From Clostridia bacterium (GTDB lineage: Bacteria; Bacillota_A; Clostridia; UMGS1883): a stretch of 22,214 nt of DNA. Below are positions 1,860 through 12,715 of this stretch, piece by piece. The notes under the pieces are model-generated. The model was given only the letters and a program-made list of their open reading frames with translations. It made no database searches and had not been told where the DNA came from. A program made the translations under genes and the position numbers. Positions within the stretch are counted from its first letter, which is position 1, and every line of letters starts with the position of its first letter. The stretch is taken from the NCBI GenBank assembly GCA_017467965.1, contig JAFUJZ010000004.1, positions 1 through 22,214 on the forward strand. The letters run 5' to 3'.

Positions 1860-2270
1860 TTATTCGAACTTATTGCCGCATCTTACGCAGAACTGTGCAC
1901 CGGGCGCATTCACAAATCCGCAAGTGCATACCTGTCCCGCATTTTCCTGGGGCATAGCTGCCTGCTGTACGGGAGCGGTCTCCTCTAAAGCTGCAATCTG
2001 CGTCCTTAAGTCTGCAATCTCCTGGTCTTTCTGTGCAACAAGTGTACAAAGATTGAAAGCTTCTTCTCTGGGGAAATCACCTTCAGAAGTGTCAATCATA
2101 AACTGGTAAAGAGTTGCACCGATAGATTCCAAAATCTGATGTTTTTCGGCTTCAAGCTTTTTTATTGCTGAATTAAGCTTTGACTTTTCTACCATTGTTT
2201 TTGAGTTGTCAGCGACCTTTTCAATACCACTGTTCAACTTATTAAGTACATTATCAAAAAAACCTGCCAT
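1860..2270 (-). CDS. Coiled-coil protein with C-terminal zinc ribbon
   Basis: 136 aa, no membrane segment. Residues about 5-60 and 65-97 are charged and helical with heptad-like spacing (KLNSAIKKLEAEKHQILESI; QKDQEIADLRTQIAALEE), predicting a coiled coil. After a Gln/Ala/Pro linker comes a zinc ribbon with Cys115, Cys117, Cys128 and Cys131, the first pair spaced CxC rather than CxxC. The ribbon is thus at the opposite end from its neighbours, where it is N-terminal. AGAGG lies about 8 bases upstream of the ATG, and the gene starts 18 bases after the stop of 2289-3677, so the two are in one operon. A soluble oligomeric adaptor is plausible. I do not recognise a characterised homologue. Confidence 0.85.
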   Translation of the reverse strand: MAGFFDNVLNKLNSGIEKVADNSKTMVEKSKLNSAIKKLEAEKHQILESIGATLYQFMIDTSEGDFPREEAFNLCTLVAQKDQEIADLRTQIAALEETAPVQQAAMPQENAGQVCTCGFVNAPGAQFCVRCGNKFE

Positions 2271-2288
2271 TTTAATTACCTCTTTCTT

Positions 2289-3677
2289 TTATTCTAAATT
2301 TATTATTTTTTCAACGCCTTCTGAGATTTTCTCAAGAAACGCATCAAACTCTTCTCCTGTCATGCCAAGAACATCTACTCTGTTTTCATCGAGCGGTGCA
2401 ATGAGGGCACCTGATTTGGGCGTAATTTCCATTTCCAGATTTATTTCGTCTGCAAGTATTGCAAGCATACTGTAGGAGTTATCGCCCTGAACACGTGTAA
2501 TATCACCAAAGGCTATCTTAAAGCCGTCCTTACCGCGAGAGCAAGTACCGCTTATAACCGTTACGGGAGCATCCTCGTCTTCGTCAAGTGCGTCAACCAC
2601 CTCTATGGTAAACTCACCCTTCTTAAAGTCAAAGGTTACTGTTGCAACGGTCTTTTCCGTAACCTCGCCGTCCTCCTCACTAATGATTGTGTAAACGTTT
2701 TCAACCTTGTCACCGCCTGTGGTAAGGTTACCTTCACAGGTAATTGTATTGGTCCATTCAAGGTTTTCACCGTCGTATTCGTACTCATTGATACTGCCTG
2801 TTGTAAAATTATCCAGAAGGTTTTCTGTCTTTGTAAAGCCAAAGAATACAGTTTCATTTTCGCCTGTAAGGTCGCATCTTACAACCATACCCTTGTAAAT
2901 ATAGAAGCTTACGTTTATATCGTCAAATTCTATATCGTCGAGTGCTTCTTCCATTTCCTCTTCGCTCTCGTACTCTTCCATGATAAGGTCATATACAAAC
3001 CTCATGGTTTTGGAATCCTTTGCTATCATTACAAATTCCTTCATAAACTCAACAAAGTCCTTATCCTCAGCTTCAAAATCAAGCTTGTGGACACTTCTTT
3101 CCTTGCCGTCAATTGTAAGCTTTACTGTTTCCTTGTTTTCGATTTCGGTACTGTCAACAAACTTTTTCATAGCTTCTACAAGCTTTTTAATAGTTTCCTT
3201 GTCCTCAACTTCCTTTTCGCTGTCTGTTATAAAGTTTGAAGCGGAAAGGTCAAGATTTTCGGGTACATCCAATCTGTCTGCATGAGCACTTTCGTTGAAC
3301 TTTTTACCAAAGTCTTTTGAAGGTATTGTATAAACAGTTTCTTCGCCCAAAACACCTGTTGATTTAACTGCAATCACGCTGTCATCCCAAAGAGCATCCA
3401 AAATGTCATACGCAGTGCCGTTAATCGATGCGTCAGCACTTATTTTAAAGTTTGCATCCTTTTTAGAACGGGATACTGCTATATCAGCTGTAGCGTCCTT
3501 TATGCCCATATCGCCTCTTAAGCCTGCTACTGCCACTGAAAACTTCATTGTTAGCTCCTCGCTCTCGGGGTCAATGCCAGTAAAATTCATACCTGCAGTA
3601 TCAAGCTCACTGTTTAAAACATCTATTGTCTTTGAAACTGCACTCATCGTATAAATCTTTGGCATTAAATGGAACAT
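2289..3677 (-). CDS. Large acidic domain, probably the ectodomain of the gene at 3607-4356, out of frame
   Basis: 462 aa as an ORF, overlapping the upstream ORF by 71 bases in the next frame. It has no signal peptide or membrane segment, yet is a long, acidic, Thr/Val-rich, probably beta-rich sequence (MKFSVAVAGLRGDMGIKDAT..., ISGTCSRGKDGFKIAFGDI) that looks extracellular. The upstream ORF supplies exactly what is missing, a zinc ribbon and a membrane segment, and stops soon after. The downstream frame is open only from 3707, so the switch must lie between 3707 and 3607; the T7 run at 3679-3685 is the obvious place. Removing one T gives one protein of roughly 680 residues. AAGGA lies 8 bases before ATG 3677, so separate coupled translation cannot be excluded. 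Function unknown. Confidence 0.75.
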   Translation of the reverse strand: MFHLMPKIYTMSAVSKTIDVLNSELDTAGMNFTGIDPESEELTMKFSVAVAGLRGDMGIKDATADIAVSRSKKDANFKISADASINGTAYDILDALWDDSVIAVKSTGVLGEETVYTIPSKDFGKKFNESAHADRLDVPENLDLSASNFITDSEKEVEDKETIKKLVEAMKKFVDSTEIENKETVKLTIDGKERSVHKLDFEAEDKDFVEFMKEFVMIAKDSKTMRFVYDLIMEEYESEEEMEEALDDIEFDDINVSFYIYKGMVVRCDLTGENETVFFGFTKTENLLDNFTTGSINEYEYDGENLEWTNTITCEGNLTTGGDKVENVYTIISEEDGEVTEKTVATVTFDFKKGEFTIEVVDALDEDEDAPVTVISGTCSRGKDGFKIAFGDITRVQGDNSYSMLAILADEINLEMEITPKSGALIAPLDENRVDVLGMTGEEFDAFLEKISEGVEKIINLE

Positions 3678-4356
3678 GAAAAAAATCCTTAAAGAAAAAT
3701 CCCACGGCTACCAAAACTGCAATTACAAGTACAACAATACCTGTAATCTTCAAGCCTTTTTTACCGCCCTTTTTCTTTTCCTTTTTAGCTTTTTTCTTCT
3801 TGCCCTTTGTATCTTCTACGGGCACTTCCACTGCTTTCGTTACGCCTGCATTTATATTTTCTGCATCTGGTGATTTATTTCCGGCTGCATTTGCAGTGAT
3901 TTCCTGTACTGCCTTTATAACCTGTTCCTCGTTGTTTTCTATAACAACTTGGGCGGGAGGTGTTTGTGTTTGTGCAGTAACATTCACCTCGACTGCATCA
4001 GGAACTTTAACCTCGACATTTGTTGTCGGTGTCTCAGTCACAGGTTCAAGAGGTTTTTCAACCTGTATGGTATTAACTGCCTCTACCTCCTCCTTCACTG
4101 CAACGGGAGGTTCGACAGGTATATCAGGCACAATAGGCTTAGGCGGTGCAATAGTTGTACCGTCAAGATTTGTTGCCGCTTTAAAATAGTCACGGGGATT
4201 AATCCTTTTTGGCGCCTCATTCACAGGCTTTTCTCCGCCCGAATACGCACCAAAAGTACCGCTTGGTGTTACCGGAGCCGAACCGATAGGATTGCCGCAC
4301 TGTGAGCAAAACTTTGCACCATCTGCATTATTTGCCCCGCATTTTGTACAGAACAT
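3607..4356 (-). CDS. Zinc-ribbon, single-TM protein (N-terminal part of a probable frameshifted gene)
   Basis: 249 aa as read. N-terminal zinc ribbon with Cys3, Cys6, Cys17 and Cys20; then about 150 residues rich in Pro, Val, Glu and Thr; a strongly basic stretch (KGKKKKAKKEKKKGGKKG); and one membrane helix (about 205-222, TGIVVLVIAVLVAVGFFF). By the positive-inside rule the ribbon and linker face the cytoplasm. The last 19 or so residues (NAKDLYDECSFKDNRCFKQ) look like an out-of-frame tail, because the other frame here reads into the large domain of 2289-3677. Start 4356 has AAAGGAG 8 bases upstream; that site overlaps the stop of the gene at 4370, so the genes are coupled. Likely one half of a one-TM receptor-like protein. 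Confidence 0.8.
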   Translation of the reverse strand: MFCTKCGANNADGAKFCSQCGNPIGSAPVTPSGTFGAYSGGEKPVNEAPKRINPRDYFKAATNLDGTTIAPPKPIVPDIPVEPPVAVKEEVEAVNTIQVEKPLEPVTETPTTNVEVKVPDAVEVNVTAQTQTPPAQVVIENNEEQVIKAVQEITANAAGNKSPDAENINAGVTKAVEVPVEDTKGKKKKAKKEKKKGGKKGLKITGIVVLVIAVLVAVGFFFKDFFHVPFNAKDLYDECSFKDNRCFKQ

Positions 4357-4369
4357 ATATATCTCTCCT

Positions 4370-5086
4370 TTATCGGATTTGTTTTCTCATAATAATGACA
4401 TACACAATGTTGATAAAACTGAATGCAACTGCAATAACGGGGGCAGGTGCAAAGTTGAGGCTTAAGCCGTCAACCGTCAGCATACTGTCCGCTACAACCA
4501 TGCCTGCGGTCAGACAAAGGCTTATGATAAAAGATGTTATATTGAACAGCATTGAAAAACCAACTGCTGTCCTTCCGCCTGTAACCAATGTGAACGACGA
4601 AAGTGTAAACAAAACTAAAATTATACCCAAAACAACCATACACGCAATTTTAAGTATATCAAGCGTTTCGTTCAAGGTTTCCAAGCCTTCGTTATCCTCT
4701 CCGACGAATTCTTCAATCAAATCGGATTTAAACATATCAGCGTTGCCGATTATCATAGGTATCGAAATTGCAATATCCGCGTCAAATTCCTCTTCTATTT
4801 CATAATAATTATTATATACTCCGCCAGTGATTTTTTTGACAACCTCAATTTCGGCTGTTGCAATGTTTGAAAACATCATAAACACGGTGATTATGCTGAT
4901 AATCATACTTACAGCCGCAATCCACCTCTTTTTTGTGGGAGCAGCTTTCACTTTTTCGACAGGAGCGGGTGCCGCTACTTCGGAAACAACAGGCTTTATT
5001 TCTTCACCTATATAAAACTGTTCACCACAATTTTTGCAAAATTTTGACTGTATATTATTGTCAGCTCCACATTTATTGCAAAACAT
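4370..5086 (-). CDS. Zinc-ribbon protein with four predicted membrane helices
   Basis: 238 aa. The start at 5086 (MFCNKCG) has GGGGAGG 7 bases upstream; the longer in-frame start at 5152 would place the promoter inside the gene. N-terminal zinc ribbon (Cys3, Cys6, Cys17, Cys20), a short Ala/Pro/Val linker, membrane helix 1 (about 55-75), an acidic loop of about 65 residues (EIEEEFDADIAI..., EEFVGEDNEGLETLNE) predicted outside, then three more helices to a short basic end (RKQIR). Ribbon plus four-helix layout matches the protein at 6593-7525, which suggests common descent or a shared design. First gene of the operon from the promoter at 5124-5152. Function unknown; a membrane sensor or adaptor is the natural guess. 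Confidence 0.85.
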   Translation of the reverse strand: MFCNKCGADNNIQSKFCKNCGEQFYIGEEIKPVVSEVAAPAPVEKVKAAPTKKRWIAAVSMIISIITVFMMFSNIATAEIEVVKKITGGVYNNYYEIEEEFDADIAISIPMIIGNADMFKSDLIEEFVGEDNEGLETLNETLDILKIACMVVLGIILVLFTLSSFTLVTGGRTAVGFSMLFNITSFIISLCLTAGMVVADSMLTVDGLSLNFAPAPVIAVAFSFINIVYVIIMRKQIR

Positions 5087-5123
5087 TTCAAATCCTCCCC
5101 TTATGTAAAACATCTTATTTATT

Positions 5124-5152
5124 ATCATATCATCCTGAGGCTTTTTTGTCAA
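5124..5152 (-). promoter_or_regulatory. Promoter of the second zinc-ribbon operon
   Basis: Consensus TTGACA (5152-5147), a 17-base spacer and TATGAT (5129-5124) on the minus strand, 38 bases upstream of the start at 5086. It should drive the genes down to 1860 and perhaps nagZ. Confidence 0.8.
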
Positions 5153-5344: not shown

Positions 5345-5370
5345 GATAGTAAAAAGGCATCAGAACATAA

Positions 5371-5400
5371 GAAAACCATCGCATTTCAGCGATGGTTTTC
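5371..5400 (-). terminator. Intrinsic terminator of the kinase operon
   Basis: Perfect 12-base stem (5371-5382 with 5389-5400) and a 6-base loop; on the minus strand the 3' arm ends GGTTTTC followed by TTATGTT. It is about 100 bases past the kinase stop, with no gene between. Confidence 0.75.
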
Positions 5401-5502
5401 CACATTTATCAAAACTTAAGACCTCTTCAAGGCGTTTCGGGATTTTTTAGCCTCTAGCTACACCTTTTTACGGTCTGGGCTATTTTTACAATCCCTCTTG
5501 TA

Positions 5503-6573
5503 CTATAAATCACTTGCATTGGTAAACCATGGGTTCGCCTTTGCTGTAGCCTTGGGTGCCGTTACTGTTTCGGGACTCTTTGTCTCTGTCACAGATGCAG
5601 CTACTCCGGGGCTTGTCACAGTAGGCTCAGGACGTGTTGTCCTAATATTTGTTATAAATCGGCTCGAATATTCAACCTTTTCGGCTCTGAAAAAGTCTGC
5701 TGATTTATCGCCTGTGATTTCGATAAGCTTTCTGTGAATATGGTCAGCATCGGGTCTTTTTTCCGGGTCAGCGTCAAGCATCTGTGCAATCAGCTCTCCG
5801 ATTTCGGGAGTGAGCAGTGCCATGTTCGGCTCAACCTTACCCTTGTCAAGAGCAACCTCGTAAAGGTAGTCATATTCACTCTTATCATAATCGGGCATCT
5901 GCCCTGTAAAATACTCATGAAATACAAGACCCAAGCTAAAAATATCAGCTTTTGTATTAATTTCAACGTTTTCGCCTATCATGTCAAGGAAAACCTCGGG
6001 AGCAAGATATGTAAGGTCGCCTCCGAGCTCTTCATTTTCTTCTCTTGTTTCGCCAACAATAAAGCCTGCGTCAAAGTCGATAAGTCTTGCAATACAGTTT
6101 CCGCCTGCCGTCTGCTTAATCATAAAATTGTTGGGTTTTACGTCCATATGTACAACACCCGCATTATGCAGACATCTGAAACAATGCGCTATAGACTTTA
6201 GTAAGAGATATTTCTTATCCAGAGGGAATTTTGAAATAACTTCTCTCGGGAGAGAATAGTTTTCAACCTTCTCAGTAACTACGTAGTATCTGCTTCCGTG
6301 ACGGAAAAACTCCATAATTCTCACAAGATTGCCTCTGCTTGCACTGTTGATCGCAATGTAGAGCTCTTTGTATTTTTCCTCAAACTCTCTGCAATATGCT
6401 ACCCTGCTTTCAAACATTTCGGGCGAAAGTGCCGTGCGGTCAATAGGATAAACAGGAGTAATAAGCTCTTTTATGAAATACTCCACGCCGTCCTTTTTTG
6501 CAAATCCCCACTTTGAAAATCCGCTGTTGGCATTATTAAGTTCACCAATAATATTATATCCGTTAATCACCAT
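5503..6573 (-). CDS. Ser/Thr protein kinase of the VWA-PP2C-kinase triad
   Basis: 356 aa, soluble. A eukaryotic-type kinase domain covers about 1-285: a loose Gly-rich loop (NNANSGF), Lys35 (FIKEL) as the ATP lysine, catalytic loop HMDVKPNN at 142-149 (Asp144, Lys146, Asn149), DFD instead of DFG at 166-168, APE at 191-193, and DIFSLG after it. All residues needed for catalysis are present. The C-terminal 70 residues are a Thr/Pro/Ala-rich tail (VTETKSPETVTAPKATAK) ending NPWFTNASDL, a likely site of autophosphorylation or docking. It has no PASTA or membrane segment, unlike PrkC/Stk1. Last gene of the operon, 19 bases after its zinc-ribbon neighbour, with GGTGG as a modest ribosome site. With the PP2C and TerY-like VWA genes it forms a TerY-P-like triad. 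Its substrates are probably the zinc-ribbon proteins encoded alongside; that is inference. Confidence 0.9.
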   Translation of the reverse strand: MVINGYNIIGELNNANSGFSKWGFAKKDGVEYFIKELITPVYPIDRTALSPEMFESRVAYCREFEEKYKELYIAINSASRGNLVRIMEFFRHGSRYYVVTEKVENYSLPREVISKFPLDKKYLLLKSIAHCFRCLHNAGVVHMDVKPNNFMIKQTAGGNCIARLIDFDAGFIVGETREENEELGGDLTYLAPEVFLDMIGENVEINTKADIFSLGLVFHEYFTGQMPDYDKSEYDYLYEVALDKGKVEPNMALLTPEIGELIAQMLDADPEKRPDADHIHRKLIEITGDKSADFFRAEKVEYSSRFITNIRTTRPEPTVTSPGVAASVTETKSPETVTAPKATAKANPWFTNASDL

Positions 6574-6592
6574 ATAAAATTACCACCAGATA

Positions 6593-7525
6593 TTACAAAT
6601 CTCCGCCCACTGAAAATCTCTGAGCGTTATTTAATGAATTCTGTACTTTAGGGACAGCGTCCTGTTCCGCTACAGGAGTAACAACCTCTTCTGCAGGCTG
6701 CTCGTAAACAGGCTCTTCTGCAGGTTGTTCAAAAACGGGCTCTTCCACAGGCTGTTCGTATACAGGCTGCTCAAAAGAAGGTGCTTCTACAGGTTCTGTA
6801 AAAACAGGTTCCTCAAAAACTGCCTCTTCTACGGGCTGTTCATACATAGCCTCTGCAGGGACACCTATAGGAGCTTTAGGCACTGTGATTTCTTCTTTCT
6901 TGCCTATGGATGCAATAAACATATTGATTATAGACAATACAAACAGAACAATAACAGTAAAGGAAATAATGGCCTGATTTTCAAGTATACTGCCTATACC
7001 ATTTCCGTATTCTTTAAAATAGCTTACTATGTCACCTTCATTAACAGCACCCATGCTGATAACAACTCCTGTTGCCACCAAAGCCATAATAATGGAAATC
7101 ATGGATGCAAGGCGGAGTGTGAGCGGATTATTCTTGCGTCTGAATTCGCCTATAATGTACCACACATACAACGCAATAGCCGACAAGGAAAGAAGAAAAG
7201 CTGCAAAAAGAGCTATAATAAAGCTCACCATAACGCTGTCCGCATGTGGCATGGTTTCAATAAGACTGTGCATATTGAAAAGGAAAAACCAGCCCTCACC
7301 AAACGCCGTTCCGGAAGGTACGGTTATCCACGGCATCAGATACATCAGTATTGAAATAATCGCAAATACAACTGCAACCATAGCGGGCTTTTTTACTGTT
7401 TTTGTTTCAAACTCCGTCATAGTAGCAGCAGGTACACTACCCATTTCTGCTACTGCCGCTGTTCCGCAGGACGGACAAAATTTGTTACCGTCTTCAAATT
7501 TAGTTCCGCAATTTCTACAAAACAT
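6593..7525 (-). CDS. Zinc-ribbon four-TM protein with C-terminal Glu/Pro repeats
   Basis: 310 aa. Zinc ribbon at 3-20 (Cys3, Cys6, Cys17, Cys20); membrane helices at about 49-67, 97-125, 141-160 and 184-206; then a cytoplasmic tail with acidic repeats from about 228 to 281 (YEQPVEEPVFEQPAEEPVYE), ending NNAQRFSVGGDL. Both termini should be cytoplasmic. The tail carries regularly spaced Tyr/Phe-Glu-Gln-Pro units and shares PVFEQP with the repeat protein at 1-484. It sits between the PP2C phosphatase (25 bases) and the kinase (19 bases), which makes it the best candidate for the membrane sensor or substrate of that pair. The ribosome site is GAAAGG about 9 bases before the ATG. No homologue of known function recognised. 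Confidence 0.87.
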   Translation of the reverse strand: MFCRNCGTKFEDGNKFCPSCGTAAVAEMGSVPAATMTEFETKTVKKPAMVAVVFAIISILMYLMPWITVPSGTAFGEGWFFLFNMHSLIETMPHADSVMVSFIIALFAAFLLSLSAIALYVWYIIGEFRRKNNPLTLRLASMISIIMALVATGVVISMGAVNEGDIVSYFKEYGNGIGSILENQAIISFTVIVLFVLSIINMFIASIGKKEEITVPKAPIGVPAEAMYEQPVEEAVFEEPVFTEPVEAPSFEQPVYEQPVEEPVFEQPAEEPVYEQPAEEVVTPVAEQDAVPKVQNSLNNAQRFSVGGDL

Positions 7526-7550
7526 ACTAATCGCCTTTCTGAATCAGATT

Positions 7551-8459
7551 TTACAGATACATACTGTAAGCGTCTTTGTATTTATTCCATTTTTCCTCGG
7601 AATTACCGTCTGTGTCTATATACTCACGATACACAATACTGTGGCGTTTTTCCAAGCTCTTTTTAAGCTTTTGGAAATTGTCCTGTGCATATACCGATAC
7701 ACAAAGTGTATAGTCATCGCCTGTATAGCTTCGTATTTCCGAATCAAGCGTCTGTTTCCATACGCCGGGAGATGCAGAACGCATCAGAGTATCAAGTAAC
7801 ATGTATTCAAACTCCATAGGAGAATTGAGATATCCAAAGCAACCGTCCGAAGCCGCAATCAGTATGCAGGGCTTCTTAAAAACAAGTCTCTTTTCGTGTA
7901 TTTCAAATCCGGAGCTTGCATTTACAACATTTGTGAGAACACCGTCACCGGAGATATTTGAAAAAGCATCCTCGCCGTCAATATCATCCAAGCTGAGTTG
8001 GTGCAATCCCATTTCATCAAGCATATAGCATCTTGAATCCCCTGCCCAGAAACACTTGCATGTTACCTTATCGGCACTTCCCTCGGATTCGATAATTGCA
8101 GCCGTTGTGGGAAAAGATTTACCCAGACTGCCCATTAATCTACCCTCTTTATCAGCATACTTGCTGCACACCTTGAGAGCACGTTCCATATATGACTTGA
8201 TTTCATCTTGACTTTGGACTTCAAACCAATTCTTTACGCCGCCGCAAACAGCTCTTGACGCCACATATGCGCCTGTTTTACCGGAAAAATTCGCATAACG
8301 ACGCGAGCCTATACCGCCACAGCCGTCAAATGCCGCAATAATTGCACGGGTTTGGTCAACACCGTAAAAAAAGCTGTCCTCACCGTTATTTGCAACCATT
8401 TCACCGTTGACGGAAAAAATAGCCGAAAGTCCACTTTTTGTTTTAGTTTTCGCACTCAT
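7551..8459 (-). CDS. PP2C-family Ser/Thr protein phosphatase
   Basis: 302 aa, soluble. Metal-ligand motifs of PP2C are in order: NGEDSF (Asp28), FDGCGG (Asp45-Gly46), FPTTAA (116-121), WAGDSR (Asp141), AASDGCFGYL (Asp205) and GDDYTL (Asp249). The Mn/Mg site therefore looks complete. It lacks the SpoIIE/RsbU regulatory domains and matches the stand-alone phosphatases found with TerY-like VWA proteins. The ATG overlaps the stop of the VWA gene as ATGA (8456-8459), so the two are translated together and are probably made in fixed ratio. Expected role: remove phosphate placed by the kinase at 5503-6573. The C-terminal 45 residues are Lys/Glu/Tyr-rich and outside the catalytic fold. Confidence 0.92.
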   Translation of the reverse strand: MSAKTKTKSGLSAIFSVNGEMVANNGEDSFFYGVDQTRAIIAAFDGCGGIGSRRYANFSGKTGAYVASRAVCGGVKNWFEVQSQDEIKSYMERALKVCSKYADKEGRLMGSLGKSFPTTAAIIESEGSADKVTCKCFWAGDSRCYMLDEMGLHQLSLDDIDGEDAFSNISGDGVLTNVVNASSGFEIHEKRLVFKKPCILIAASDGCFGYLNSPMEFEYMLLDTLMRSASPGVWKQTLDSEIRSYTGDDYTLCVSVYAQDNFQKLKKSLEKRHSIVYREYIDTDGNSEEKWNKYKDAYSMYL

Positions 8460-9142
8460 ATTGTGTTAGAAATAGTGTCAATAATCTGACTATATTCAAG
8501 ACTGCTGAGACCGTCACCTGCTGTAGAGGGGAAATGCAACACGTTGTCCCAGTTTCTGGATATAATGCTCCAACCGGGAAGGTCGGGAGCAAACAAAAGC
8601 AATCTCTTTGCGTTGTTGTCCATAAAGCCCTTCTGCTGAGCACCGCCCCACCAGGAAGAAAGTTCGCTGATATCCTTTGCCATACCGTTGGGGTAGTAGG
8701 GACTTTCCTTACCAAAGCCGAGAGCATGAGTTTCGGCATCTGTCCATACAACGATAACCTGTCTCTTCTTCATGCCTTCTGTGTCCCAGTTGGACTTGAT
8801 AGCATAGGCCAAAGCTTCGAGACCGTCTTCGGGTTCGTCTCCACCGCCGTCAGCCTGAAGGCTTCTTACGCACTGTTCAAATTCCGCTGCTTCTTCGGGC
8901 AAACGGAAAAAGTCTGTTACAAGCATAGCGTCCTGACCGTCTGCAATATAGTCACGGAACGCAACAACTCTTACACGAAGCTGTGTAATGTGCTTGTTCT
9001 TCTGCTCCATAACCTTTGTAACGTCCTGATAAAAGTTAAGAGCATTGTTCTTAACGATGTCGATAATGTTGTCCATACTACCTGTACAGTCGATACAGAA
9101 TACCATGTCAACATTGTAAGTAATTTTGTAATTGCTACCCAT
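8456..9142 (-). CDS. TerY-like VWA domain protein
   Basis: 228 aa, one von Willebrand A domain and little else. The metal-dependent adhesion site reads DCTGSM (Asp18, Thr20, Ser22, a DxTxS form of DxSxS), with GGGDEPEDGLEAL at 99-111 giving a second acidic loop and WTDAETHA (Thr134, Asp135) the third. With no signal peptide it acts in the cytoplasm. GGAGG lies 8 bases before the ATG. Stop and PP2C start overlap by four bases. TerY-type VWA proteins co-occur with a PP2C phosphatase and a Ser/Thr kinase (TerY-P triad) and are thought to scaffold them in a metal-dependent way. No TerB, TerC or TerD gene is visible in this window, so a link to tellurite or metal stress is not shown. Confidence 0.9.
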   Translation of the reverse strand: MGSNYKITYNVDMVFCIDCTGSMDNIIDIVKNNALNFYQDVTKVMEQKNKHITQLRVRVVAFRDYIADGQDAMLVTDFFRLPEEAAEFEQCVRSLQADGGGDEPEDGLEALAYAIKSNWDTEGMKKRQVIVVWTDAETHALGFGKESPYYPNGMAKDISELSSWWGGAQQKGFMDNNAKRLLLFAPDLPGWSIISRNWDNVLHFPSTAGDGLSSLEYSQIIDTISNTI

Positions 9143-9167
9143 TTTATATTCCTCCGTTTTTTATATT

Positions 9168-9803
9168 TTAGTCTTCTTTATATGTGTGTTTTTTTGCCCA
9201 GTCTTTCGCTAATTGTTCTTTTTTTATTTCATTGTTTTCGTTTTTAATTTTATCTACATTCTCAAGAGCATATTTTTGCATCGCCTCTTCATTTTTTATG
9301 CTTTCAAGTGCATAAGTTTCTTTATCTTTTTCGGAAACTTCTCCCTGAGAAGGATTATTAAAGAAATAATCATATGCGTCGCGCTGTTCTTTGGTAAGCA
9401 CCTCCGGATCAAACGGAGTTTCTTCCTCATCTTCTGTTTCTGTAATATCACGTGTTTCTGTAATATCACGTGTTTCTGTTTCCTCTTCGTCTGTATCTTC
9501 ATCGCGAGCTGTATCAACATTTGCACACATCAGCATTGCCGAAATAGACAAAATAATTGCCACTACGCTCACGCCGATTGCAACTATGCTGAGTATCGGA
9601 GCAAGTGGACTTGCTTTTTCGGGAGCCTTTGCCGGCACTGTATTCATTACTGTTACACCTTCCTTTACGCTATTTTCGCTATTTTCATAGCTCAATATGT
9701 CCCCAAATCCGCCGCAGGAAGTTTTCTGAGGCATTAAAGCGCCGCAGTACTTACATTTAGTTTGGTTTTCGGGATTTGTTTTTCCGCATTTTTCACAATA
9801 CAT
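9168..9803 (-). CDS. Zinc-ribbon, single-TM protein with acidic repeat region
   Basis: 211 aa. Zinc ribbon with Cys3, Cys6, Cys17 and Cys20 (MYCEKCG...CKYCG); a linker of about 40 residues; one membrane helix at about 67-93; then an acidic stretch containing two perfect RDITET copies (DEDTDEEETETRDITET...); and a Lys/Glu-rich, probably helical C-terminal 80 residues. The acidic and helical half should be outside the cell if the ribbon is inside. AGAGGTG stands 7 bases before the ATG. Second gene of the kinase operon, 16 bases after the RanBP2-like gene and 25 before the VWA gene. Function unknown. Confidence 0.85.
   Translation of the reverse strand: MYCEKCGKTNPENQTKCKYCGALMPQKTSCGGFGDILSYENSENSVKEGVTVMNTVPAKAPEKASPLAPILSIVAIGVSVVAIILSISAMLMCANVDTARDEDTDEEETETRDITETRDITETEDEEETPFDPEVLTKEQRDAYDYFFNNPSQGEVSEKDKETYALESIKNEEAMQKYALENVDKIKNENNEIKKEQLAKDWAKKHTYKED
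9436..9478 (-). repeat. 18-bp tandem repeat encoding RDITET
   Basis: GTTTCTGTAATATCACGT occurs at 9436-9453 and 9454-9471, then GTTTCTG to 9478. The two full copies are identical at the DNA level, so the duplication is recent. It keeps the frame and adds six residues to the acidic region. Confidence 0.85.
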
Positions 9804-9819
9804 TATGTTTCACCTCTTA

Positions 9820-10206
9820 TCAGAATAAATAAAAGTTTTCGTTGAGGAAAACCACAAGTCCGATGATAACAATAATAGCAATGACAACACATATAATCGC
9901 CTTTATTCCTGTTGAATCCCCTCTTGAGTATGTAGGAGGAGCATACTCAGGTTCTGCAGGCTTACTGCTCGGAGCAGTTGTATTGACCCAGCCACCGGTG
10001 GTTACCGTCGGGGTCGGTACGGTTTTAGGTTTTGTGCGTGCTGTTTCCCAGGTTTCAAGAACTCTGCTTGTAACCTGTCTGTTCATACCGCATACAATAC
10101 ATTTTGTATATTCCATGTGATTTTCGGTTTCACACTCGTTGCACAACCATGCCTTGCTGTTGCGCTTATATGTAAGTATTGTTACGGTTTCATTATGCTC
10201 TGCCAT
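9820..10206 (-). CDS. RanBP2-type zinc-finger, tail-anchored membrane protein
   Basis: 128 aa. The start at 10206 (MAEHNE) has AAGGAGG 4 bases upstream; the longer TTG start at 10221 is inside that ribosome site. Residues 20-39 read W-x-C-x2-C-x3-N-x6-C-x2-C (Trp20, Cys22, Cys25, Asn29, Cys36, Cys39), the RanBP2 zinc-finger pattern, unlike the other ribbons here. A Thr/Pro-rich linker follows, then one hydrophobic helix at about 101-121 close to the C-terminus (ICVVIAIIVIIGLVVFL), so it is probably tail-anchored with the finger in the cytoplasm. First gene of the operon that holds the VWA, PP2C and kinase genes. RanBP2-type fingers bind ubiquitin or RNA in eukaryotes; no such role can be claimed here. 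Confidence 0.85.
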   Translation of the reverse strand: MAEHNETVTILTYKRNSKAWLCNECETENHMEYTKCIVCGMNRQVTSRVLETWETARTKPKTVPTPTVTTGGWVNTTAPSSKPAEPEYAPPTYSRGDSTGIKAIICVVIAIIVIIGLVVFLNENFYLF

Positions 10207-10310: not shown

Positions 10311-10339
10311 ATTATATCACATTTTGTAAAAAGTGTCAA
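10311..10339 (-). promoter_or_regulatory. Promoter of the kinase/zinc-ribbon operon
   Basis: Consensus TTGACA (10339-10334), 17-base spacer, TATAAT (10316-10311) on the minus strand. The leader is about 100 bases long, rather long for this window, and contains an imperfect palindrome GAGGGTTAACTCTC (10267-10280) that could be an operator or nothing. Confidence 0.85.
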
Positions 10340-10393
10340 ATACTTATTGCCTTTTTATGTCATACAAACACATCATTTTTTTTACAGTTGCAC

Positions 10394-10422
10394 TTGCACA
10401 AATCCATAAACGGTGTTATAAT
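10394..10422 (+). promoter_or_regulatory. Promoter of apgM
   Basis: TTGCAC (10394-10399), 17-base spacer, TATAAT (10417-10422), 33 bases before the apgM start. The two divergent promoters are back to back with 54 bases between their -35 boxes. Confidence 0.75.
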
Positions 10423-10455
10423 ACACTAAATTGTTTGAAAGGAGCTTATTTTCCT

Positions 10456-11664
10456 ATGAAATATGTAATAGTATTGACCGACGGTGCAGGCGACTACCCT
10501 ATCGACGCATTAGGCGGCAAAACACCTTTAGAAGTTGCCAATATGCCCAATATCAACTTCTTTGCATCAGAAGGCAAGCTTTGTCTTGTAAAAACAGTCG
10601 GTGCAGGCTTAAAGCCCGGCAGCGACGTTGCCAACCTTTCTGTTATGGGCTACAACCCTTACGAATATTATACAGGTCGTTCCCCTCTTGAGGCAGCAAG
10701 TATTGGTGTTGAGCTCAGCGAAACACAGACAGCTTTCCGTGCAAACACCGTAACACTTTCCGATGAAGAAAACTACGAAGACAAAACAATGCTTGACTAT
10801 TCTGCAGGCGAAATCACAACAGAGGAAAGCAGAGAGCTTATCTTAGCCGTTAAAGAAGCACTTTTCAGCGGTGATATTGACCTTTTCCCCGGCGTAAGCT
10901 ACCGCCATTTATTCACTTGGGACAATGCACCCGAAAAATTCACTCTCACTCCCCCTCACGATATTTCCGACCGTAAAATTAAGGACTACCTCCCCGACAA
11001 TGAGCGTATCCTTGATTTGATGAAAAAGAGCGAAGCTGTTCTTAAAAATCACCCTGTTAACCTTAAGCGAATTGCCGAGGGCAAAAACCCTGCAACAAGT
11101 ATCTGGGTATGGGGCGAGGGTAAAAAGCCACTCCTTACAAGTTTTGAAGAAAAGTTCGGCGTTCGTGGCGCAGTTGTTTCCGCAGTTGACCTTATTAAAG
11201 GCATCGGTATCTTGGCAAAGATGAAGTCCATCGACGTTGAAGGCGTAACAGGCAATTTGCACACTAACTTTGACGGCAAGGCAAAAGCCGCCGCAGACGC
11301 CCTTTTAAAGGATGACTACGATTTAGTCTATGTTCATCTCGAAGCCCCCGACGAATGCGGTCACCAGGGCGATATGGAGGGCAAAATCAAGAGTCTGGAA
11401 TTAATCGACGAAAAGATTGTAGGTTATATCAAGAATGAGCTTGATAAGGCAAATGAAGACTACTGCTTTATGATTCTCCCCGACCACTTCACCCCCATAG
11501 CAATCAAAACCCACTCCGCAGAAAACGTTCCCTGCGTAATGTATCGTAAGGGCGATGAAAACAGAACCGGCTATACATACTGCGAAAAATGTGCCGATGC
11601 AAACGGTGAATATATCGAAATCGGACACGAATTAATGAAAAAGTTTATTGATATGGGTAAATAA
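10456..11664 (+). CDS. apgM: Archaeal-type cofactor-independent phosphoglycerate mutase (ApgM family)
   Basis: 402 aa, soluble alkaline-phosphatase superfamily enzyme. The start MKYVIVLTDGAGD at 10456 has GGAG 11 bases upstream; the 41 extra residues of the longer ORF cross the promoter and are not homologous. Metal/catalytic motifs: LTDGAGD (first metal Asp), KPGSDVANLSVMGYN with the phospho-acceptor Ser, LEAPDECGHQGD (Asp and His ligands) and LPDHFTP (Asp-His). Expected reaction: interconversion of 3- and 2-phosphoglycerate through a phosphoserine. A subgroup of this family has been proposed as an alternative homoserine kinase; no threonine genes lie next to it here, so the mutase name is kept with that caveat. 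Single gene with its own promoter and terminator. Base composition is slightly richer in C than the zinc-ribbon genes, typical of a highly expressed gene. Confidence 0.88.
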   Translation: MKYVIVLTDGAGDYPIDALGGKTPLEVANMPNINFFASEGKLCLVKTVGAGLKPGSDVANLSVMGYNPYEYYTGRSPLEAASIGVELSETQTAFRANTVTLSDEENYEDKTMLDYSAGEITTEESRELILAVKEALFSGDIDLFPGVSYRHLFTWDNAPEKFTLTPPHDISDRKIKDYLPDNERILDLMKKSEAVLKNHPVNLKRIAEGKNPATSIWVWGEGKKPLLTSFEEKFGVRGAVVSAVDLIKGIGILAKMKSIDVEGVTGNLHTNFDGKAKAAADALLKDDYDLVYVHLEAPDECGHQGDMEGKIKSLELIDEKIVGYIKNELDKANEDYCFMILPDHFTPIAIKTHSAENVPCVMYRKGDENRTGYTYCEKCADANGEYIEIGHELMKKFIDMGK

Positions 11665-11667
11665 TGA

Positions 11668-11693
11668 AAACGGCACGCAAATGCGTGCCGTTT
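11668..11693. terminator. Bidirectional terminator between apgM and the HEPN gene
   Basis: Perfect 12-base stem (11668-11679 with 11682-11693), in practice a hairpin with a small AAATG-type loop. T-rich tails occur on both sides (GTTTGAATTAT on plus, GTTTTCATTATTT on minus), fitting the convergent genes. Confidence 0.8.
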
Positions 11694-11696
11694 GAA

Positions 11697-11969
11697 TTAT
11701 ACAATACTTTTAAAGAATTCTTTTACTACGGGAATCTCAGTTGTGGCAATATCCCAAATAATTTTATAATCCAATGTTCCATATCGATGTGCACAAACGT
11801 TTCTTAACTGCTTAAAATTCCGCCAATCAATATCGTCAAGGTGCTCCTCTCGAAATTCATCTGTAAAATGAGTTATCAATTCACCCATAGCAAGTAGCTG
11901 CATTGTTACTCCGTCTTGAATAAGTTCATCGTGCATAAAATCTTCGATTTTATTGTTACAACGTGCCAA
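11697..11969 (-). CDS. HEPN-domain protein (HepT/DUF86-like toxin), 5' end probably frameshifted
   Basis: 90 aa from the only in-frame start, a TTG at 11969 without ribosome site. It carries RNVCAHRY, i.e. R-x4-H-x-Y, the RNase motif of HepT toxins including the Tyr that the partner AMPylates. Family features continue upstream of the TTG: the same frame encodes SHCERIERYL, typical of the first HEPN helix, but there is no start before the partner's stop at 12024. An ATG at 12019, 4 bases past that stop, opens another frame (MNVASHMIHIVKE, then stop). Removing one CA from CACA at 11992-11995 joins them into a normal 106-aa protein. So this is either a decaying toxin gene or a sequencing error. 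Follows the nucleotidyltransferase gene in the usual antitoxin-toxin order. Confidence 0.72.
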   Translation of the reverse strand: MARCNNKIEDFMHDELIQDGVTMQLLAMGELITHFTDEFREEHLDDIDWRNFKQLRNVCAHRYGTLDYKIIWDIATTEIPVVKEFFKSIV

Positions 11970-12023
11970 ATAACGCTCTATTCTTTCACAATGTGAATCA
12001 TATGACTCGCAACATTCATATCT

Positions 12024-12341
12024 TTACTGCTCATAAATGCACTTCCGCTCTTCATTTATCTTTTGGATAAGCTGTTTATTTGCACCCATCGTCACAGGAT
12101 TATACAATCCGTCCTTTGTAATAATATCAATGCTCTTGCCAACACTTTCTTCAACATCGGAGAAGAAACTGCAAAACTTAAGTCCCAAGGGCTTTGAAAG
12201 TTCAACATAAAAGTCTATGTCGCTATTTTCCGTTGCCTCACCTCTTGCATATGACCCAAACAGATATACTTTGTCAATACCATATTCTTCTGAAATCGGT
12301 CTTACTTTATCTGCAATTTCTTTTGTTGTATAAATACACAT
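12024..12341 (-). CDS. MNT-type minimal nucleotidyltransferase (MntA-like antitoxin)
   Basis: 105 aa. The start at 12341 (MCIYTT) has AGGAGGG 6 bases upstream; the longer start at 12368 has none. GSYARGEATENSDID gives the G-S-x10-D-x-D signature (Gly29-Ser30, Asp41, Asp43) of the DNA polymerase beta-like fold, and IDIIT later fits the third acidic position. No other domain. In MntA/HepT pairs this protein neutralises the HEPN RNase by adding AMP to its RX4HXY tyrosine. Here the motifs for that are intact in this protein, while the partner's 5' end seems broken. A good promoter precedes it (12378-12405). Confidence 0.88.
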   Translation of the reverse strand: MCIYTTKEIADKVRPISEEYGIDKVYLFGSYARGEATENSDIDFYVELSKPLGLKFCSFFSDVEESVGKSIDIITKDGLYNPVTMGANKQLIQKINEERKCIYEQ

Positions 12342-12377
12342 AAACAACCCTCCTCTCAACACTATCATCTCAATAAT

Positions 12378-12405
12378 ATTATATTATAGAATATTGGATT
12401 TTCAA
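12378..12405 (-). promoter_or_regulatory. Promoter of the MNT/HEPN pair
   Basis: TTGAAA (12405-12400), 16-base spacer, TATAAT (12383-12378) on the minus strand. A second TATAAT overlaps at 12388-12383 but is too near the -35. Confidence 0.6.
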
Positions 12406-12469
12406 GTGATAAATAATATGTACATTTATTTACTGTCAAAAGTAGTAGCGGTCTATCCGCCGATGCTTG

Positions 12470-12715
12470 CTACACCTCTATTTTTACACAATCACCGTTT
12501 GAGCTATTCACTTCTACAAGCGTCCAGTCTTCGTGATTGTGTCTGTACTTATTCAATGCTTTCATAAATTTAACTGACTGCTTTTTTGTAATCTTAACGC
12601 CGTGCGGTTCTAAAACTTTCGGAATAAACATAGCTGTAAAACTGTTTACAACAACAGCTGTCGGAACGGACAGCTTAATATTTGTATTTTCACCACTTTT
12701 TACAATAATTCTCAT
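12470..12715 (-). CDS. Stand-alone copy of the XRE regulator's C-terminal domain
   Basis: 81 aa. It begins MRIIVKSGENTNIKLSVPTA and ends LVEVNSSNGDCVKIEV, parallel to LRIIVDSEGGDKVKINLPLA and LLEVESQSGDVVRILVE in the C-terminal half of the regulator just upstream. This is probably the SHOCT-like domain seen in DUF2089 and YvlB-type proteins (recognised by eye). The middle (KITKKQSVKFMKALNKYRHNHED) is more basic than in the regulator. Starts 3 bases after the regulator's stop; its ribosome site GGTGGAG is the last codons of that gene, so translation is coupled. Could pair with the regulator to modulate it. No motif for catalysis. Confidence 0.75.
   Translation of the reverse strand: MRIIVKSGENTNIKLSVPTAVVVNSFTAMFIPKVLEPHGVKITKKQSVKFMKALNKYRHNHEDWTLVEVNSSNGDCVKIEV

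Follow-up and report, generated by a model that had tools for sequence, protein, structure and literature searches.

How can a Ser/Thr kinase and a phosphatase that both lack a membrane anchor work together with separate membrane proteins? The question is raised by a six-gene operon on contig JAFUJZ010000004.1 of a Clostridia bacterium (GCA_017467965.1), of which positions 1 to 22,214 were analysed and are called the window. The operon occupies 10206 to 5503 of the minus strand and encodes, in that order, the zinc-ribbon proteins zf128 and zf211, a VWA protein, a PP2C-type phosphatase, a third zinc-ribbon protein (zf310) and a protein kinase. We found that the kinase shares a short C-terminal tag with partner proteins encoded nearby, a feature absent from the earlier note on this DNA. 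We give an even chance to the reading that the operon is a membrane-docked Ser/Thr phosphorylation switch whose VWA protein reads the common tag on the kinase and its clients. The features are listed below in the direction of transcription.

10311 to 10339, minus strand: sigma-70-type promoter of the operon, TTGACA-17-TATAAT, 12/12 consensus, with TG ahead of the second hexamer
9820 to 10206, minus strand: zf128, with a RanBP/NZF-type zinc ribbon (WLCNECETENHMEYTKCIVC), a Pro-rich linker and a C-terminal transmembrane (TM) anchor; RanBP below the cut-off
9168 to 9803, minus strand: zf211, with a zinc ribbon at the N terminus, one TM segment and an acidic C-terminal region
8456 to 9142, minus strand: VWA protein, integrin-beta I-like by Pfam, AlphaFold2 and fold matches, the proposed tag reader
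7551 to 8459, minus strand: PP2C-type Ser/Thr phosphatase, with invariant D45, D205, D248 and D249
6593 to 7525, minus strand: zf310, the proposed tagged client, with a zinc ribbon, about four TM segments and a Pro/Glu-rich tail
6596 to 6619, minus strand: codons of the C-terminal tag of zf310 (RFSVGGDL)
5503 to 6573, minus strand: soluble Ser/Thr protein kinase with a disordered tail
5506 to 5529, minus strand: codons of the C-terminal tag of the kinase (WFTNASDL; family consensus WFxxAGDL)
5370 to 5401, minus strand: terminator-like stem-loop 3' of the kinase, 13 pairs and a short T tail

Among 120 clusters of kinase homologues, 107 carried the strict tag pattern and 112 a looser one, and the tails gave the consensus W-F-x-x-A-G-D-L behind a linker that was not conserved. 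The remaining eight clusters comprised five that ended in GNL, two with other residues ahead of DL and one that was tagless. In the AlphaFold2 model of the window kinase (pLDDT 86), the tail scored about 50 to 64 and residues past ~290 were of low confidence; a tail predicted to be disordered would fit a short linear motif, as expected. Docking of the tail onto the kinase's own domain was considered and dropped, the tail being of low confidence in the model.

Relatives were collected by a scan of genome contigs, in which 163 places were found to encode one. The best 80 of the 163, biased to near relatives, were used and form together with the window the 81 loci described here; the nearest named relatives were metagenome-assembled genomes of Oscillospiraceae and Clostridia. 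The genes for VWA, PP2C and kinase occurred within 6 kb in 72/81 loci, in the order VWA-PP2C-kinase in 53 and PP2C-kinase-VWA in 19, which bears out the recurring unit named in the earlier note. The 80 loci served to tune the tag patterns; the fresher sets were the 120 kinases, whose clusters may overlap the 80 loci, and the new loci L144, L145 and L152, in which the kinase was tagged in 3/3. Four other places (L143, L146, L148 and L151) were the same as L012, L007, L017 and L016, respectively, and were not counted as new.

The tag was not restricted to kinases. It was found in its strict form on 19 of the 496 nearby non-core genes, when 0.19 were expected from shuffling, and on 1 of 468 other genes, that one being an operon member of locus L002 at a distance of 7.7 kb; at least five of the partners in L002 are tagged. 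Tagged proteins included zinc-ribbon proteins with and without TM segments, a second kinase (L042) and, two genes ahead of PP2C in the triad locus L024, a protein (8520-9932) in which a kinase domain is combined with an N-terminal TIR-like region (TIR_2 27.8 bits, cut-off 28). The tails of partners were closer to that of their own kinase than to those of other kinases (20.96 versus 16.15, standard deviation 0.94, 0/2000), a likeness that may be raised by shared descent of the loci. In L030, DDFD tails occurred together on the partner and its own kinase. The 310-aa protein zf310, taken in the earlier note for the likely substrate or sensor, does stand out as a special partner because it shares the kinase's tag.

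We then counted the pattern FxxAGDL-stop across whole genomes. The 22 genomes with the system gave 34 matches, ~30 of them within the operon by coordinates, against 2 for the reversed pattern, and a stricter WF pattern gave 16 matches against 1. In 98 genomes of one order there were 13 matches, 11 of them outside the two system genomes, and 22 for the reversed pattern. A genome-wide sorting signal was rejected because the strict pattern was nearly confined to the operon. Four off-operon matches were inspected: one in a transporter region where no open reading frame (ORF) end fits (G020:C79), one with an in-frame stop within the pattern (G008:C83) one with no ORF of at least 80 aa terminating there (G012:C72) and one at a contig end with letters identical to that genome's kinase end (G003:C44); all four were discounted as chance or duplicate matches.

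The VWA protein is the candidate reader of the tag. It matched VWA_4 (42.5 bits) and Integrin_beta (26.0 bits) in Pfam, and integrin beta was the top solved-structure match of its AlphaFold2 model (pLDDT 85, pTM 0.87) among the matches listed. The residues D18, S22, D102, E105 and D135, as well as T/S20, were present in 81/81 loci; judging from the alignment, we take them to be the integrin metal-site positions. VWA was also the best conserved core protein, with a mean identity to the window of 64% over 69 loci versus 39% for PP2C and 40% for the kinase domain, and the best 120 of its 1983 homologue clusters had identities of at least 73%, bar one at 55%. The protein is probably cytoplasmic, since it has no sign of secretion. 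An apparent fusion of the L059 VWA to a long N-terminal part was dropped, being just an upstream open frame with no fusion. In L150, three VWA genes of this family stand in tandem (6545-8710), which correspond to three of the five VWA hits in genome G587.

Two known systems led us to propose VWA as the reader. The C-terminal AGDV of fibrinogen gamma is held through its Asp at the beta metal site of integrin beta-3 (PMC4813479, in the part available), and in the bacterial CbbQO rubisco activase the intracellular VWA of CbbO depends on its metal site and on a single acidic residue of rubisco (PMC4660213, likewise). The integrin beta I-like domain is the closest fold among the matches listed, its metal-site residues are invariant here and its AGDV ligand resembles the tag AGDL; unlike integrin, the window VWA is probably cytoplasmic and has no alpha subunit, and the likeness between the two ligands may have arisen by convergence. 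CbbQO differs in that it works with a MoxR-type AAA+ ATPase (PMC4660213), and none is encoded in the window operon.

The window kinase matched kinase-type families only (Pkinase 102.3 bits); K35, H142, D144, K146, N149 and D166 were invariant across 62 aligned sequences, with the DFG motif reading DFD. PP2C_2 scored 25.7 bits (cut-off 24), and D45-G46, D205-G206 and D248-D249 of PP2C were invariant across 28 sequences. The description of both enzymes as catalytically complete is thus upheld. No TM segment was counted in the kinase by hydropathy, and by sequence neither enzyme has its own membrane anchor. TM counts in this work come from a hydropathy window and no topology predictor.

Three membrane proteins with a zinc finger each had been noted, and the four ribbon Cys are indeed present in each of zf128, zf211 and zf310, but only zf310 passed Pfam (Zn_Ribbon_1 26.9 bits, cut-off 25); zf211 stayed below at 24.0 bits against the same cut-off and zf128 at 17.7 bits for RanBP (cut-off 27). 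The three ribbons probably face the cytoplasm. In zf310, a crude count of ~4 TM segments would put ribbon and tag on one side of the membrane. Across the loci, a CxxC..CxxC ribbon occurred in 162/496 nearby non-core genes versus 15/468 other genes of the same 81 loci, an enrichment near core genes that exceeds chance. A zinc ribbon lay at most 5 kb from the core in 46/56 loci with enough flank; zinc-ribbon and NZF rates of 66/76 and 46/68 were not used, as short-flank loci had been counted only when positive. Zinc-ribbon membrane proteins as neighbours are therefore, as the earlier note had it, part of the make-up.

The most specific partner was a membrane-anchored zinc ribbon of the RanBP/NZF type. 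The pattern WxCxxCxxxN...CxxC was found in 49/1269 nearby ORFs versus 1/3838 other ORFs, and on a TM-bearing ORF in 42/81 loci; ORFs were defined by length, without resolved start sites, and the nearby sets include spurious ones. The arrangement varied, with an N-terminal ribbon and a C-terminal anchor in the window and a C-terminal ribbon and an N-terminal TM segment in L029 (Blautia caecimuris DSM 29492). The Herpetosiphon plasmid pHAU01 (Chloroflexota; L113, 9845-10093) has an 82-aa ORF, absent from the gene table, with an NZF zinc ribbon and a C-terminal TM segment, which comes straight after the kinase of a VWA-PP2C-kinase set. The divergent class members L147 and L149 also carry NZF zinc-ribbon TM proteins, so the partner is older than the Clostridia set. 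The suggestion that ter partners had been replaced locally by zinc-ribbon proteins is therefore not sustained: with the trio and such a protein already together in Herpetosiphon, the partner looks old.

Partners in relatives differ in their ectodomains. Pfam scans, which took in 127 of the 128 zinc-ribbon neighbours and 90 of the 99 other neighbours, gave PASTA (L013), Big_2 with LRR_5 (L056) and WG repeats (L004); FHA domains were found in L026, L028 and L031, plus 4 of the 90 other neighbours. PASTA receptor kinases of the PrkC/StkP type carry the kinase, their own TM segment and PASTA repeats in one protein and have a PP2C partner. The kinase and PP2C are common to both, and a PASTA domain occurs within the L013 operon, whereas the window kinase has neither TM nor PASTA, and in L013 the PASTA domains sit with an NZF zinc ribbon and a TM segment in one protein (10952-12676) that adjoins a soluble kinase. 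Judged from this gene arrangement, L013 is possibly a PASTA receptor kinase split in two.

Taken as a switch, the operon would work as follows. The soluble kinase and PP2C would set the phosphorylation state, with the phosphatase, as its family suggests, resetting it. The separate zinc-ribbon membrane proteins would give anchors and, in relatives, varied ectodomains. VWA would bind WFxxAGDL tags, presumably via the tag Asp, and so unite the kinase with clients such as zf310, and the NZF/zinc-ribbon proteins would keep the assembly at the membrane and may report envelope or external signals. A bolder form, to which we give somewhat less than even chances, is an intracellular integrin-like receptor system in which a cytoplasmic VWA reads [W/F]FxxAGDL in a metal-dependent manner and joins the kinase-phosphatase core to interchangeable zinc-ribbon membrane sensors, which amounts to a split modular receptor kinase. 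If true, a patchy but common signalling core of Clostridia selects its plug-in sensors through a short tag at the C terminus, and inside bacteria an integrin-like domain mirrors animal integrins outside cells, with a metal ion reading a C-terminal Asp motif. As the tag makes clients recognisable from sequence, kinase substrates and sensors of uncultured gut bacteria would become predictable.

Several observations weigh against VWA as the tag reader. The proteins zf128 and zf211 have no tag. Among kinase rows of the wider set of 80 loci, 25/74 had the strict tag and 37/56 the loose one, and distant members had tail variants such as GEDDL or DDFD; the strict tag is a trait of nearer relatives, with variants further out. 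GNL replaces GDL in L047 as well as in the five kinases mentioned above, and Asn is a poor metal ligand. A clade of 13 loci (L044, L045, L048, L059, L060, L062, L066, L070, L073, L074, L077, L079 and L080) lacked the kinase tag in 11/11 scored and a nearby ribbon in 9/9 scored, so that the trio does occur in relatives without zinc-ribbon neighbours, here in one clade, a finding that by the earlier note's own test speaks in part against it. All VWA metal-site residues were kept in this clade, and the site therefore has some use without the tag. Its kinases have His in place of the catalytic Asn149 in 11/11 scored, and perhaps are weak or inactive. A Fisher test gave a strong association of tag and ribbon (37/0 versus 9/10, p 2.6e-6; 25/81 loci dropped for short flanks). 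However, the tagless, ribbonless loci form one clade (SH-aLRT 100), the result is thus pseudo-replicated and not independent evidence, and a tree-based pairs test of the association was not significant. The association rests on few events.

A rival is that the tag is real but read by PP2C, a zinc ribbon or a partner's kinase domain, while VWA scaffolds something else. PP2C is likewise a core gene, and no tag was seen on it; the metal site kept in the tagless clade and the GNL tails also favour this reading. Set against this, positions specific to the tagged versus the tagless clade numbered 9 in VWA, three of them (206, 208 and 209) in one loop, versus 2 in PP2C, which is a hint only; VWA is the best conserved core protein, and its fold matches Asp-reading integrin-beta domains. 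We regard a different reader as unlikely.

Still less probable, in our judgement, is a TerY-P-like module against phage or chemical stress, whose kinase and phosphatase toggle an effector and whose membrane proteins are effectors or infection sensors. It would suit the patchy distribution: full-length VWA matches were found in 2/147 genomes of one order, plus 5 weak, partial ones, in 2/100 genomes of one family and 4/21 of another, and in a sample of the class VWA was found in 14/391 genomes. The kinase resembles the PADLOC mad6 and PD-T4-6 models, and the tagged TIR-like protein of L024 and FHA-subtilase proteins in loci of the L027/L028 style also point this way. On the other hand, VWA and PP2C had no PADLOC match beyond AbiEi at E 0.046, and for 90 neighbours the 25 of 62 PADLOC families listed were mostly kinase models, with no defence-specific one standing out. 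No relative was found in the viral contigs scanned, and of 72,556 plasmid records just 2 held one (Herpetosiphon and Calothrix). A tblastn search of those records with VWA (E<=1), in which no TerY sequence was directly compared, returned only the VWAs of these two; ter-bearing plasmids are presumably among the records.

The TerY-P triad itself, a TerY-like VWA with PP2C and a Ser/Thr kinase, has been proposed as a phosphorylation switch, and stand-alone defence is reported for modules like it (PMC11090510, in the part available). The same three classes are found here in one operon. In that text, though, the kinase is described as C-terminally fused to a zinc ribbon, or to an OB-fold in the defence variant; the window kinase has neither fusion, its VWA is integrin-beta-like, and the zinc-ribbon membrane proteins are separate and share a C-terminal tag with the kinase. 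TerY-P triads are linked to ter genes or to CoCoNuT/restriction genes; no ter family was found in the scanned window genes or among the 25 of 117 Pfam families listed for the 90 neighbour proteins. TerY-P, the label first given to the triad, is retained as a likeness only.

The weakest rival, which we hold to be very improbable, is that the zinc ribbons themselves sense, as a zinc or thiol-stress switch whose tag serves only for sorting or turnover: no other non-core part is as regular as the ribbons, but ribbons of this type are often structural, and the varied ectodomains, PASTA, LRR_5 and Big_2 among them, suit external sensing. Metal sensing has been proposed for TerY-P triads (PMC11090510, same part).

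The make-up had been thought undescribed. A set of kinase, PP2C and vWA linked to GAP1-N2 GTPase systems is in fact known from actinobacteria (Kaur et al. 2020, PMC7159879), and according to the available part of that paper it likewise comprises an adjacent, catalytically active kinase and PP2C and a standalone vWA suggested as a peptide binder. There, the zinc ribbon or TM segment is attached to the kinase, whereas in the window both are on separate proteins, and that part of the paper does not mention the tag. Pfam scans of the window genes turned up no GTPase family, relatives' neighbours not having been screened family by family for DO-GTPase and GAP1. In one open-licence library, no paper was found that deals with the tag or with zinc-ribbon membrane partners as separate proteins, and to this extent the claim of novelty stands. 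Overall, the earlier observation is confirmed and its interpretation partly supported.

The layout agrees with a single transcription unit, as first described. The six genes are separated, in transcription order, by 16, 25, -4, 25 and 19 bases behind the promoter with its 12/12 consensus; the operon is real and its make-up recurs. The scans also yield chance sites, with 35 promoter-like sites found versus 20.1 in shuffles and 10 terminator-like ones versus 7.8. The ATGA overlap said to couple VWA to PP2C is present in the window, but was found in only 9 of the 56 loci having VWA directly ahead of PP2C, and the coupling is therefore not a conserved feature.

Directly downstream on the same strand lies a second cluster (1860-5152) with its own promoter-like site at 5152-5124 (11/12 matches) and no tags at its protein ends. 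It encodes zinc-ribbon proteins at 4370-5086 and 3607-4356 and, at 1860-2270, an ORF with a weak C-terminal zinc ribbon. The ORF at 3607-4356 (zinc ribbon and TM) and that at 2289-3677 (without a Pfam match) share 71 bases but are read in different frames; the region 2289-4356 looks like a single protein of zinc ribbon, TM segment and ectodomain interrupted by a frame break, either genuine or an assembly error. The operon is flanked on its other side by a phosphoglycerate-mutase-type gene (10333-11664, plus strand), a relative of which was found at 1205-2407 of L111, which is on another contig of the L014 genome.

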